This document shows, one piece after another, positions 10,631 through 16,836 of a DNA stretch of 35,910 nucleotides; position 1 is the first letter of the stretch; every line of letters begins with the position of its first letter. Under the pieces are notes generated by a model, which ran no database searches, had not been told where the DNA came from, and saw only the letters and a list, made by a program, of their open reading frames with translations. The stretch covers positions 1 through 35,910 of the forward strand of contig JAKATR010000080.1 in assembly GCA_021818675.1 (NCBI GenBank), written 5' to 3'. The position numbers were made by a program, and so were the translations under genes. The stretch is from Thermoplasmata archaeon (GTDB taxonomy: Archaea > Thermoplasmatota > Thermoplasmata > Thermoplasmatales > Thermoplasmataceae).

Positions 10631-10954
10631 CTATTCCCTTATGATTTCCTTTAACCTTTCCACGGCAAACCTGTAAAGTTCATCATCAGTTCCCTTATAT
10701 TTCATTGCCGTGGTTTCCGTTCTGGTTTTCGCTATCTCATTATCCCTAACTTTATCCATTTCAGTTTTCAGGGAAGCCATTTTTTCAATCCTTTCACTGG
10801 TCATCTTTGCAGTGAGCGACTTGAGCTTTTCTTCTCTCTCTTTCTTGGCCGCATTAATGGCATCCCTGCACTTCACTTCTTCATCGGCTATCTCCTTTCT
10901 GCTCTTCTCCTCAGCCTCTTTAATGGCTTTAAGCTCCTCTATTTCATTTACCAT
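10631..10954 (-). CDS. atpH: A-type ATP synthase subunit H (peripheral stalk)
   Basis: 107 aa coiled-coil, charged, immediately upstream of subunit I. Confidence 0.8.
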   Translation of the reverse strand: MVNEIEELKAIKEAEEKSRKEIADEEVKCRDAINAAKKEREEKLKSLTAKMTSERIEKMASLKTEMDKVRDNEIAKTRTETTAMKYKGTDDELYRFAVERLKEIIRE

Positions 10955-11081
10955 ATAATATCACCATAAGTGCAATTGCAAGTACCACCACTGAAACCCT
11001 TACTGCCAGAAGGATAAGCCTGTATCTAATGAATCTGATCTGGGATTCATTGAGTTGGCCCGAATAGACTCTCTTTTTCAT
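10944..11081 (-). CDS. Small single-TM protein (45 aa) inside the ATP synthase operon, not in the supplied ORF track
   Basis: My translation: MKKRVYSGQLNESQIRFIRYRLILLAVRVSVVVLAIALMVILYGK*. It fills the gap between subunits D and H and overlaps the atpH start by 11 nt. Confidence 0.6.
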   Translation of the reverse strand: MKKRVYSGQLNESQIRFIRYRLILLAVRVSVVVLAIALMVILYGK

Positions 11082-11094
11082 GATACCATTAACA

Positions 11095-11730
11095 TTAATC
11101 AATATCACCCGAGGTTATTTTCTTTTTCACAATCTTCAAAGTTGTGAAAGTATCCCTCTCCATTTCATCAAGGCGCATTCTGATGTACTTTGCCTGTGCA
11201 TTAAGATTTGGAATCAGGATGTTTTCAATGGCATTCGATCTCCTTTTCGTCCTGTCAATTTCATGAAGCAGTCTTCTCATTGAGTTTTCCTTCTCTGCAA
11301 CATTTATGAGCGACCTGAACAGCTTCTCGAATTTTGAAATTGCCTCGTCCACCGGGATTGGAACAGAAAGAGCACGATATTGCTCAGATAGGACTGCCTT
11401 TTCATAATCAATGTTAAGAACTGGTATTCTCACACCCATTACATTTTTTGGTTTGATCCCGACATTTGATTCTCCTGACATGTATGCAATGCGTTCAATG
11501 GTCATCATTCCAGAAGCAATTTCGGCATTGACCATGGAATTCAGGGCTTCTTCCACATCTTTCCTGAGGTTTTCCCTCAAGCCTCTGATCTCGGCGGCAA
11601 GTTTCAGAAACTCCATAACAAGGGCTGATCTTTTCATTTTTAGAAGATCCAGGCCCCTCTTTGAGAGCTTGATCCTTCTTCTCAACTTGATGAGTTCAAT
11701 CCTTGTGGGTCTGATTTCCATTGATGGCAT
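11095..11730 (-). CDS. atpD: A-type ATP synthase subunit D
   Basis: PTRIELIKLRRRIKLSKRGLDLLKMKRSALVMEF, characteristic N-terminus of subunit D. Confidence 0.95.
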   Translation of the reverse strand: MPSMEIRPTRIELIKLRRRIKLSKRGLDLLKMKRSALVMEFLKLAAEIRGLRENLRKDVEEALNSMVNAEIASGMMTIERIAYMSGESNVGIKPKNVMGVRIPVLNIDYEKAVLSEQYRALSVPIPVDEAISKFEKLFRSLINVAEKENSMRRLLHEIDRTKRRSNAIENILIPNLNAQAKYIRMRLDEMERDTFTTLKIVKKKITSGDID

Positions 11731-11731
11731 T

Positions 11732-13114
11732 TTAGTTACTCTTCCATTTTCCGTATTTAGTAATATGCTCCCTTTTGAGTCTCTTCATATCCTCTTCTGG
11801 CAATTCAGAAAGAAGATCATAGCTTATTCCAAGAGTTGCCTCTATGGTTCTGTCTTCATTGAGACCTTGGGCAACATATTTCTTCTCGAACTCCTCTGCA
11901 AATTTCAGATACAATCGATCATTGGCTCCAAGTGATTCTTCTCCTACGATTGCGCTGAGAGATCTCAGATCTTTACCGTTTGCATAGGCAGAATATAATT
12001 GATCAGCAACACCCCGGTGATCCTCACGAGTTCTCCCCTTACCAATACCCTGATTCATGAGCCTTGAAAGTGATGGAAGCACATCTACAGGTGGATAAAT
12101 GCCCTTTCTCTGGAGATCTCTGCTCATAACGATCTGGCCCTCTGTTATATAACCGGTCAGGTCAGGGATTGGGTTAGTAATGTCATCTCCGGGCATTGTA
12201 AGGATTGGAATCTGTGTAATTGAACCGTTTCTTCCCCTTATTTTTCCAGCCCTCTCATAAATCATGCTCAGATCAGTATACATGTATCCTGGAAAACCTC
12301 TCCTTCCGGGCACCTCTTCTCTCGCAGAAGAAATTTCCCTGAGGGCTTCGCAATAGTTGGTCATATCTGTAAGAATTACAAGTACATGGTATTCGCTGTG
12401 ATACGCCAGATATTCCGCCGCAGTTAAAGCCACCCTTGGAAGGATTATTCTCTCCATGGATGGATCAGATGATAGGTTCAGATAAATAGCCGCTCTTGAA
12501 AGGGCTCCTGTGTTTCTAAACTCATTTATGAAATAATTTGCCTCCTCGCTGGTTATACCCATGGCCCCAAATATAACGGCGAACCCCTCATCCTTGCCAA
12601 TAACCTTCGCCTGTCTGGCAATCTGTGCAGCCAGCATGTTGTGTGAAAGACCTGAACCTGAGAATATGGGCAGTTTTTGTCCTCTGACAAGAGTGTTCAT
12701 CCCATCAATGGTCGAAATACCTGTTTGAATGAATTCTGAAGGTTCTTCCCTTGAATATGGGTTCATTGAACTTCCCACAATCTCAAGTTTTTCCTTTGAT
12801 ACAATGGCCGGTCCCTGATCGATGGGTTCTCCAAGACCATTGAAAATTCTCCCAAGTATTGAATCTGAAACAGATATTTTTGACGCTTCTCCCGTAAATC
12901 GCACTACGGTATTTCTGTTGTCTATACCTGTTGTTGGGCCAAATACCTGAACAACTGCCATACCTTTCCTTGTATCAAGAACCTGACCGGATCTGATCTG
13001 ACCGTCAGGGGTTTCAATGGAAACCATTTCATTGTAGCCTGCATTGCTTATACCTTCCACAAAAATTAATGGTCCGCTGATCTCCTTAATGCTTTTGTAG
13101 CCCACTTTAACCAT
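11732..13114 (-). CDS. atpB: A-type ATP synthase subunit B
   Basis: [21 protein letters not shown] start at 13114 (track start at 13153 overlaps atpA); [28 protein letters not shown]. Confidence 0.96.
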
Positions 13115-13115
13115 A

Positions 13116-14870
13116 TTAAACACTCTCCAAGACTTTCTTAACTTCCTGAGCAATGCTCTCCTTCATTTCATCATGATACTTCTGGAAATCAGAATCTCTT
13201 ACCTCTTTCATCCTTGAAATAAGGCTTCTGCACTTCATCTTCTGTAGCGTTGCCATTTGTGCCCCTTTGGAGACTGCCTGATCTTCCATATCGCCAAGAT
13301 AAAGTATGCTCTGCAGCATGAGAAATTGCTTTTTCATTGAGCAGAACTGATCTATTTCGTCAAAGGCACTCTGCTGAAGGAAATCCTCCCTGATCATTCT
13401 GGCCGTGTCAAGAACGACCTTTTCCCTGTCAGGTAGAGCGTCGTAACCCACCAGCTGTACAACCTCCTGCAATTCAGCCTCCTTTTGAAGTATTGCCATT
13501 GAATTTTTATATAATTGGGGCCAGCTTTCAGACACATTTTTAGAAAACCATGGCAGAAGCTCATTCTGATATAGAGAATAGCTGTTCAGCCAGTTTATTG
13601 AAGGGAAATGTCTTCTTGATGCAAGGGAAGCGTCAAGCGCCCAGAAAACCCTTGTAACCCTCAGGGTATTCTGTGATACTGGCTCAGAGATATCTCCTCC
13701 CGGGGGAGAAACTGCGCCAACAATAGTGATTGATCCAATTCGTTCAGGCAATCCAAACACCCTCGAATTTCCTGATCTTTCATAAAATTCTGATAGTCTT
13801 CTTCCAAGATATGCAGGATATCCCTCTTCACCTGGCATTTCCTCAAGTCTTCCAGAAATTTCTCTGAGGGCCTCAGCCCATCTGGATGTACTATCAGCCA
13901 TCAACGCAATGCCATACCCCATATCCCTGTAATATTCTGCAATGGTAATGCCTGTGTAAATACTTGCTTCCCTTGCTGCTACTGGCATATTGGAAGTATT
14001 TGCAATCAGTATGGTTCTTTCCATAAGCGGTTTTCCGCTCTTTGGGTCCTGAAGCTCAGGGAAGGTTGTGAGAATCTCTGTCATTTCATTTCCCCTTTCT
14101 CCGCATCCTACATAAACTACAATATCACTGTCTGCCCACTTTGAAAGCTGATGCTGCACAACTGTTTTTCCGCTGCCAAAGGGACCCGGAACAGCTACTG
14201 TTCCTCCCTTTGCCACTGGGAACAGGCTGTCTATGACTCTCTGCCCCGTGATCAGAGGTATCTGTGGAGGAAGCTTGTTCTGGACTCTTCTTGAAACCCT
14301 TACAGGCCACTCCTGCTTCAGCCTCAGATCTACCATACCTGAGTCAGTCTTCAGTTTGGCCACAGTTTCTGTTATGTTGAATGAACCTGATTTAATTTCA
14401 GTAATTTCTCCGGATAATCCCAATGGAACCATTATTTTATGAAGAATAAGTGAGGTTTCCTGCACTTCGCCGATTATATCGCCCTGACCGACCTTAGCGC
14501 CTTTGGATACCGTAGCCTTGAAATCCCACTTCTTGTTTTGATCCAGAGGCGGGGCGGTATACCCTCTCATAATGAAATCACCAGTCTTCTCTCTTATAAC
14601 GTCGAGAGGTCTCTGAATACCATCATAAATGGATTGAAGCAGGCCTGGACCAAGCTCAACTGATAGAGGCTTTCCCGTGGATTCCACGGGCTCACCAGGT
14701 CTAATGCCCGTGGTATCTTCATATACCTGAACAGTGGCCTCATTTCCAGAGATTTTGATTATTTCTCCAACAAGACCCATCTGGCCCACTTTAACAACAT
14801 CGTACATCCTCTGATTTTCTATGCCTTCTGCAATAACCACTGGTCCTGATACCCTAATAATTACTCCCAT
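13116..14870 (-). CDS. atpA: A-type ATP synthase catalytic subunit A
   Basis: [15 protein letters not shown]-loop, [43 protein letters not shown]. Confidence 0.97.
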
Positions 14871-14874
14871 TATT

Positions 14875-15201
14875 TCACCTGTTTAGATCGATTCCTAACA
14901 CTCTTTTTGCCAGCTCAGACAGAGATTCTTCATTCCTGATCCCAGGAAGAGGAATAAACATGATAAGAGGGTTTGTTGAAGTTTCAACGGTGGAAAGAAG
15001 TTTCCTGTCCATATGCTCCTTAAAGGATTCGGAGACAAGAATCATGGAATATTCTTTGGAATTCATAAGGTCCATAAGGAGCTTTATTCCTGTTTGGCCC
15101 TCCTCATCATAGGAATCGGCGATCCCTATGAGCTTAAAGCCAAGGGAAATATTTCTCTCCCCTATTACTGCAATTTTCCCCTTACCGCTTTCTTTTATCA
15201 T
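14875..15201 (-). CDS. atpF: A-type ATP synthase subunit F
   Basis: 108 aa, [19 protein letters not shown]; between C and A genes. Confidence 0.9.
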
Positions 15202-15202
15202 T

Positions 15203-16267
15203 TCACACCATTATCAATAGTTCCTTTATCTTTGCCGGTTCAAGCCCATAAACTTTTCCATTCACTATTTTTCTGATATTATCCCTTTCATTTTCAGCCC
15301 TTAACATAACAGAAAATATGGAACCCATAGAATTGCTCTGCGTGGAAAGCAAATCAAGATATTTTTTAAGAATTGAGCCCTGTATTTTCTGCTCAAGCAT
15401 GGGCATACTCATCTTTGTGTTCTGTTCTCTTTCAATCATAATTGTAAGGAGATCCTCAATCATTTTCACATGATCCGGATTTCCTGTAAGCTGGTTAAAG
15501 AACTCCTCCAGCCTTGAAACTTTAATGTTTCCGAAGGGTATAAGCCCTGGCAGGAGTAAATCAAATGGAAGTTTCAGGTAATGCCCCTTCATTAATATCA
15601 TGATATTTCTTTCATCAACTCTGGCTTGAAAATAACGTATAATTGCCCCTTCATCTCCTCTGAAGAATTTAATTGAATCCATCAATCTTTCATAATGCAT
15701 TATGTCCAGGGAATAGAGCAGGATGGAAAGATCTCCCGTTTTTCTAAAATTATCCATATATTTGAGCATCTCAATTCCATAACCCATCTTCACCAGATAC
15801 TTGGAAATCGATTCAATGTCACCCTCCTCTGACATAATGTTGTAATCTTCCTTGGTTAGGAGAGAGGTTCTCATTCCAATGGGTATCTTCTTGTCGTTTA
15901 CAAGGAATATATCAGTTTCGGATATTGGCCTGTTAAGGAATTTAGCCGTAAGGAGGGACTTTATGCTTTCGATGTCCCATCTTGATAAATAAGCCGTGAT
16001 AAATGATCTGGCTGATGGAGGAGTTCCTTCTGCCAGTCTAACTATGATCTCTATCATTCTCCTGTTAGATGCAATTTCCACGAGATTCTTTCCTTCATAA
16101 GTATTGAATAATTCAACCAGATCTTTCTTGAAAGAGGTTTCATTGAGAATTCTTGTGATTTCTTCAAAATTAGGAGCTTCGCTAAGCCTGTTGATCTGTT
16201 CACTGTTGAGAAGCTCCGTCTTTATAAGTCTGCTTCTGCCATAATTGCCGGCAAAGGAAATTTCCAT
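15203..16267 (-). CDS. atpC: A-type ATP synthase subunit C
   Basis: 354 aa, V-ATPase subunit d/C-like; NYGRSRLIKTELLNSEQINRL; operon position between E and F. Confidence 0.9.
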   Translation of the reverse strand: MEISFAGNYGRSRLIKTELLNSEQINRLSEAPNFEEITRILNETSFKKDLVELFNTYEGKNLVEIASNRRMIEIIVRLAEGTPPSARSFITAYLSRWDIESIKSLLTAKFLNRPISETDIFLVNDKKIPIGMRTSLLTKEDYNIMSEEGDIESISKYLVKMGYGIEMLKYMDNFRKTGDLSILLYSLDIMHYERLMDSIKFFRGDEGAIIRYFQARVDERNIMILMKGHYLKLPFDLLLPGLIPFGNIKVSRLEEFFNQLTGNPDHVKMIEDLLTIMIEREQNTKMSMPMLEQKIQGSILKKYLDLLSTQSNSMGSIFSVMLRAENERDNIRKIVNGKVYGLEPAKIKELLIMV

Positions 16268-16836
16268 CAGTTTGCACCAATATTTTCAAGTATCCTGGCT
16301 TCTAACTCTGGTTTTATTTCTTTAAACAGCCTGTCTATCCTGAAATCCATAATCTTTTCAGCATTTGCTGAGCTGCATATAATACCCATTTTGATTGCCG
16401 GGTCTTTCTTAATATTTATTTGATTTTTTTTGCCTTTTAAAAACTCAAAGTCCTCAGGGGAGCAATTGACAATAAAATCTCCACCAAGCTCTTTCTCCGC
16501 TATGGCCATAGAATCATTTAGTATCTCTTCATATTCCTTCCCATGCTTCAGAGTTGAAAGTTTTGAGTTAAGGTGCTCCATGAGCGCATTTACAATTTCC
16601 GTTTTTCTATTCAGGATAATGGAATTCTTCTCCATATTAATGGAATCATGCTCTCTTCTCCTGGCTACATCAATATCGGAGTCCATTCTTGCTTTGAAAT
16701 CCTCCTGCATAGTGCTCAATTCTTCAACAGAAGACCTGGATATAGTTTCCAGTTCCGCAGCACACTGACTTCTAATATATGCAAGGCGGTCTTCCCTGTT
16801 TTTCTCTATATCTGCCAGAATTTCTTTAATGGCCAT
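16267..16836 (-). CDS. atpE: A-type ATP synthase subunit E
   Basis: 189 aa coiled-coil N-terminus and globular C-terminus; operon position. Confidence 0.88.
   Translation of the reverse strand: MAIKEILADIEKNREDRLAYIRSQCAAELETISRSSVEELSTMQEDFKARMDSDIDVARRREHDSINMEKNSIILNRKTEIVNALMEHLNSKLSTLKHGKEYEEILNDSMAIAEKELGGDFIVNCSPEDFEFLKGKKNQINIKKDPAIKMGIICSSANAEKIMDFRIDRLFKEIKPELEARILENIGAN

Follow-up and report, generated by a model that had tools for sequence, protein, structure and literature searches.

The KECFABD-X-HI operon described here carries a tenth gene, X, between atpD and atpH, and on balance its product is best read as a small membrane subunit belonging to the A0 sector of the ATPase. 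The gene is conserved in archaea of two phyla wherever this operon type occurs, with a single exception among the D-H loci compared.

A tenth gene between atpD and atpH

In the window (the whole stretch of 35,910 nucleotides that was analysed), the ATPase genes run K-E-C-F-A-B-D-X-H-I on the minus strand (Table 1). An earlier note on this DNA had described a 45-aa ORF with one transmembrane segment that fills the gap between atpD and atpH and whose stop overlaps the atpH start by 11 nt. Both observations were borne out, the strand being minus. The window ORF list gives a translation of 45 residues (MKKRVYSGQLNESQIRFIRYRLILLAVRVSVVVLAIALMVILYGK, followed by the stop). The atpD stop (11097-11095) is separated from X by 13 nt, and, as read from the window sequence, X terminates (stop at 10946-10944) past the atpH ATG (10954-10952), which accounts for the 11-nt overlap. 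The frame of X remains open upstream as far as a GTG at 11108, corresponding to a 54-aa version. Because a diverged sister copy of the operon (L004/L012) has a TAG at the place of this upstream extension, translation probably begins at the ATG at 11081.

The borders of X contain elements that could link its translation to that of its neighbours. At the atpD stop starts a mini-ORF of 5 codons, whose TGA shares bases with the X start codon (ATGA) and which is preceded at a distance of 8 nt by GGTGAT (11104-11109, minus strand). The same layout is repeated in L002-L004 and L012, including the diverged sister operon, and suggests termination and reinitiation across the X start. A second GGTGAT, resembling a Shine-Dalgarno element, falls within codons 39-41 of X and precedes the atpH ATG by 5 nt. 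Taken together, the element within X and the mini-ORF before it suggest that translation may be coupled from D through X to H.

Table 1. Features of the ATPase operon in the window.
Feature	Position	Strand	Basis
X, 45-aa single-membrane-helix protein	10944..11081	-	ORF, kept in relatives; dN/dS; AlphaFold2 helix 12-43
Shine-Dalgarno-like GGTGAT, putatively for atpH	10960..10965	-	read from sequence; function presumed
5-codon mini-ORF ATG TTA ATG GTA TCA TGA	11078..11095	-	read from sequence; coupling role presumed
atpD, central stalk	11095..11730	-	PF01813 match at 11122-11697, E 4e-56
atpH, peripheral stalk coiled coil, 107 aa	10631..10954	-	ORF; iterated profile matches in relatives
atpI, membrane a-type subunit, 647 aa	8683..10626	-	ORF; profile
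atpB	11732..13114	-	ORF; start trimmed to ATG
atpA	13116..14870	-	ORF; profile
atpF	14875..15201	-	ORF; profile
atpC	15203..16267	-	ORF; profile
atpE	16267..16836	-	ORF; profile
atpK, ring subunit, 78 aa	16845..17081	-	ORF; one copy per genome in genus

The passages of Wang et al. (2019; PMC6863869) that deal with the V-type-like archaeal ATPase describe a single operon for nine subunits including H, shared by Thermoplasmatales and acidophilic or acid-tolerant Nitrososphaeria and moving between phyla. The operon studied here is of this type. Nine subunits in the order K-E-C-F-A-B-D-H-I were found in the window and in L009, L020, L021 and L037, the AtpD search returned both Thermoplasmatales and Nitrososphaeria, and X is homologous between them.

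Conservation and selection across two phyla

Loci of relatives were fetched with AtpD from GTDB genomes and supplemented by whole-genome searches. Of the 69 distinct D-H loci, 68 have a small single-helix ORF of 30-63 aa between the two genes; these 68 belong to Thermoplasmata (including Aciduliprofundum-like MAGs) and to Nitrososphaeria with a transferred V-type-like ATPase. This count sets aside L157, which appeared as a D-H locus only through a spurious weak H match, and includes L064, initially missed solely through the hydrophobicity cut-off. In the Aciduliprofundum-like genomes (L020, L021, L022) X has only 30 residues, nearly all of them helix, and a single-contig genome (L079) carries the gene as well. 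Among Thermoproteota operons with K after D, none of 17 had such an ORF, and in two Micrarchaeota loci (L025, L056) the gene next to D is unrelated and X is absent. The linkage of X to the V-type-like operon type is exclusive.

The single D-H-I operon without X (L088; G096 contig 83) has its atpH start 12 bases past atpD. A fusion of X with H was sought in this operon and not found, and no fusion of X to any other subunit was seen in the loci examined. X is thus not strictly indispensable, and L088 provides a natural experiment on its dispensability.

The earlier note had named a frame broken in relatives as one sign that X is not a gene; instead, the frame was kept throughout the 68 loci. Values of dN/dS ranged from 0.06 to 0.38 among Thermoplasmata pairs (0.15-0.38 within the genus), with a median of 0.13 among Nitrososphaeria pairs, and substitutions in X fall mostly at third codon positions, indicating that X is under purifying selection. 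In Nitrososphaeria, X starts mostly with TTG, which may be why it was missed in annotation there; a Shine-Dalgarno-like motif lies upstream in 37 of 41 cases.

It could be argued that X is a chance ORF, or a frame kept merely for the translational coupling of atpH. The overlap with the atpH start agrees with this, and a hydrophobic ORF of 33 aa or more with an ATG start appeared in 37 of 4000 dinucleotide shuffles of the gap, that is, in about 1% per locus. However, selection at the amino-acid level (dN/dS) and the profile match across phyla described below refute this explanation, and the spacing between X and H varies from an overlap in Thermoplasmata to a gap of about 20 nt in Nitrososphaeria. 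We therefore find a coupling-only frame hardly credible. A chance origin is excluded by the codon-position bias, the dN/dS values and the filling of the same position in nearly all D-H operons, and X is almost certainly a real protein.

When alignments of X from Nitrososphaeria and from Thermoplasmatales were compared profile to profile, they matched with E = 5e-7 and a score of 32.0, against at most 15.4 for decoys (32 windows around AtpI and AtpK helices and 60 shuffled profiles). On this sequence evidence, the X proteins of Thermoplasmata and Nitrososphaeria are homologous. A joint profile (A1) run over whole genomes gave X matches in 74 of the 100 genomes from the order and in 21 of 101 from the class Nitrososphaeria, as expected if only some genomes have a V-type-like ATPase. 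Nearly all fetched matches (45/46) lie directly after atpD, 44 of them also before atpH; the sole exception is weak (E 0.003). The C-terminal 28-residue sequence was new to the profile in 29 of the 46.

When 14 family members were scanned against Pfam and NCBIfam, nothing significant emerged, and profile searches of the PDB gave architectural matches only, to LH1 alpha chains (the best, E 0.02) and SecE. Across Pfam, NCBIfam and the PDB, X had no sequence match to known small subunits of rotary ATPases. The description of X as overlooked needs qualifying, as it probably does not apply to Nitrosotalea devanaterra. The passages of PMC4836417 on its ATPase give atpI as NDEV_1999 and atpD as NDEV_2002; as this leaves exactly two locus tags in between, for H and X, the gene has probably been called. 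Neither the main-text passages of that paper nor those of PMC6863869 on the nine-subunit enzyme mention it. X probably represents a new, uncharacterised family of small components of a known kind of machine. The relevant passages of PMC6863869 connect the V-type-like ATPase with the expansion of ammonia-oxidising archaea to acid soils and deep-sea habitats. A tenth conserved gene travelling with this enzyme alters its parts list, the design of constructs for heterologous expression and the reading of future cryo-EM maps.

Predicted structure and putative role in the A0 sector

Members of the family are small single-helix D-H ORFs with the motif N-x4-[KR]-F-x2-[IV]-R-x6-[NRK], and the window protein is one of them (N11-x4-[KR]16-F17-x2-[IV]20-R21-x6-[NRK]28-I29 in its numbering). 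Position 17 (Phe or Leu) and the polar position 28 are invariably kept in the aligned sequences, the latter being N, R or K in 45 D-linked matches (40 by pattern, 5 by eye). AlphaFold2 predicts one helix from residue 12 to 43 (mean pLDDT 84), of which about ten residues would stand in the cytoplasm, and the N-terminus is predicted to be cytoplasmic by the positive-inside rule. F17, I20, R21 and position 28 share a face of the helix; in a general periodicity test the preference for one face was suggestive but not significant (permutation p = 0.115).

The strict linkage of X, its co-transfer and its apparently coupled translation with D and H make it very likely that X works with the ATPase. Given its conserved residues, which resemble those of an interface, we prefer to read X as a permanent, AtpI-bound subunit of A0, and X would rather probably be a stable subunit than an assembly factor. 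We infer its presence in the complex, its partner and its role as follows. The short basic N-terminal tail and about ten helix residues (a conserved Asn cap, then [KR]-F-x-x-[IV]-R) would lie at the cytoplasmic face. The single continuous helix would then cross the membrane, with the obligate polar Asn, Arg or Lys 28 about two turns in, and leave only a stub outside. One face of the helix would probably pack against a membrane subunit, AtpI being likelier than the ring, and X would probably stabilise the stator or the stator-stalk junction, by analogy with the small one- or two-helix subunits of other rotary ATPases. A more far-reaching proposal, which we make tentatively, is that X might be a stoichiometric tenth subunit that defines the acid-associated V-type-like ATPase and moves with its operon between phyla; its polar intramembrane residue could then shape the AtpI/ring interface or seal the ring, aiding proton pumping at low pH.

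The main rival, and our second choice after a permanent subunit, is an assembly or insertion factor that would bind the ring or AtpI transiently during the building of A0 and be absent from the finished enzyme, comparable to UncI/AtpI of F-type operons or yeast Vma21. Such a factor might well be small, have one helix, evolve faster than D, be encoded directly ahead of H and I, and be missing from one otherwise similar operon (L088), as X is. However, the strictly kept polar membrane residue and the cytoplasmic motif, found over two phyla, fit a permanent interface at least equally well. We consider an assembly role rather unlikely.

X is also a small and basic membrane protein, and its ATPase operates across large pH gradients, which might bring to mind a peptide that leaks ions or protons, or a stress-time inhibitor of the ATPase like cyanobacterial AtpTheta. 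The position of X within the operon speaks against conditional expression, and nothing in its sequence points to either function, which we regard as very improbable.

For the permanent subunit that we prefer, the eukaryotic V-ATPase offers a comparison, with its small subunits e and f and the single-helix Voa1/Ac45/PRR located beside subunit a or inside the ring. Like X, these are small membrane components, but their topology or size differs, and no sequence match to X was found in their PDB chains.

The E-plasma genome has two ATPase operons (L009, KI542676.1, and L012, KI542678.1; contigs C4 and C6 of G003), which share 89% identity in D, 75% in I and 50% in H. Between the two operon versions of the genus, X is 50% identical compared to 89% for D, and such fast divergence would suit a peripheral role. 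The second E-plasma operon has no K gene before E, and the genome has a single K. Both operons retain X, and its persistence in the K-less operon speaks slightly against the ring subunit as its partner. In addition, atpH was found in both (L009:6777-7100 and L012:6777-7100), contrary to the reported absence of AhaH from Eplasma (PMC3750248).

AhaG and other small genes downstream of atpD

It was suggested in the earlier note that X could be a positional counterpart of Methanosarcina ahaG. This proved apt for position and architecture. In A-type operons (HIKECFABD) of other Thermoplasmatota, 29 loci have a single-helix ORF of 40-90 aa directly after D (alignment A2), which shares with X its position, its length and an N-terminal charged segment followed by one helix. 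Homology of X to these ORFs is at most tentative, as the profile-profile score (hhalign, 16.3) barely exceeds that of the best shuffled decoy (16.0). The A2 sequences have a DxPEKxAR motif before an invariant Gly; this Gly and the Asp-x-Pro-Glu-Lys motif are missing from X. The sole local X-A2 match aligns the same pre-membrane motif. In many other lineages no A2-like ORF follows D.

A2 resembles Methanosarcina AhaG in position and build. X is likened to AhaG by description, on the basis of M. mazei (ahaHIKECFABDG) and Methanothermobacter: both are encoded directly downstream of D, are small and have one hydrophobic tryptic peptide, but the operon order differs from that of X (PMC4350412, PMC3087415). 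AhaG of M. mazei has 6.3 kDa and yields two tryptic peptides above 900 Da, one of them very hydrophobic (PMC4350412), and in silico digestion of X gives the same pattern. Membership of AhaG in the ATP synthase complex is uncertain (PMC4350412, PMC3087415), and its orthologue is stated to be missing from both T. acidophilum and the AMD plasmas (PMC3750248). The main-text passages of a M. mazei Ribo-seq study mention the ATP synthase operon only in a reference (PMC11456600). Searches of plasmids gave no match for an AhaG-like protein (tblastn) or an A-type atpD (blastn).

X might nevertheless be the orthologue of AhaG, both descending from one ancient small subunit whose gene followed D, the operon having undergone a circular rearrangement from HIKECFABD-G to KECFABD-G-HI. 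Such an origin would be compatible with either a permanent or an assembly role. The shared place relative to D, the size and build, the 29 A-type operons, the local profile match and the digest all point in this direction. Against it stand the near-decoy score and the invariant Gly and Pro of A2 that X has not kept, and AhaG itself is known here by description. We see orthology as possible, but short of probable.

A further small ORF, NtpH, which follows ntpD in the V-type operon of Enterococcus hirae, we take to be placed like X; NtpH is reportedly not part of the purified E. hirae V-ATPase. X provides fresh material for deciding if AhaG and similar small proteins with genes behind D are genuine subunits of the ATP synthase. 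The A2 ORFs directly after atpD (e.g., L067, L086, L090, L126), which have no entry in curated family libraries, form a second unannotated small single-helix family and an AhaG-like candidate.
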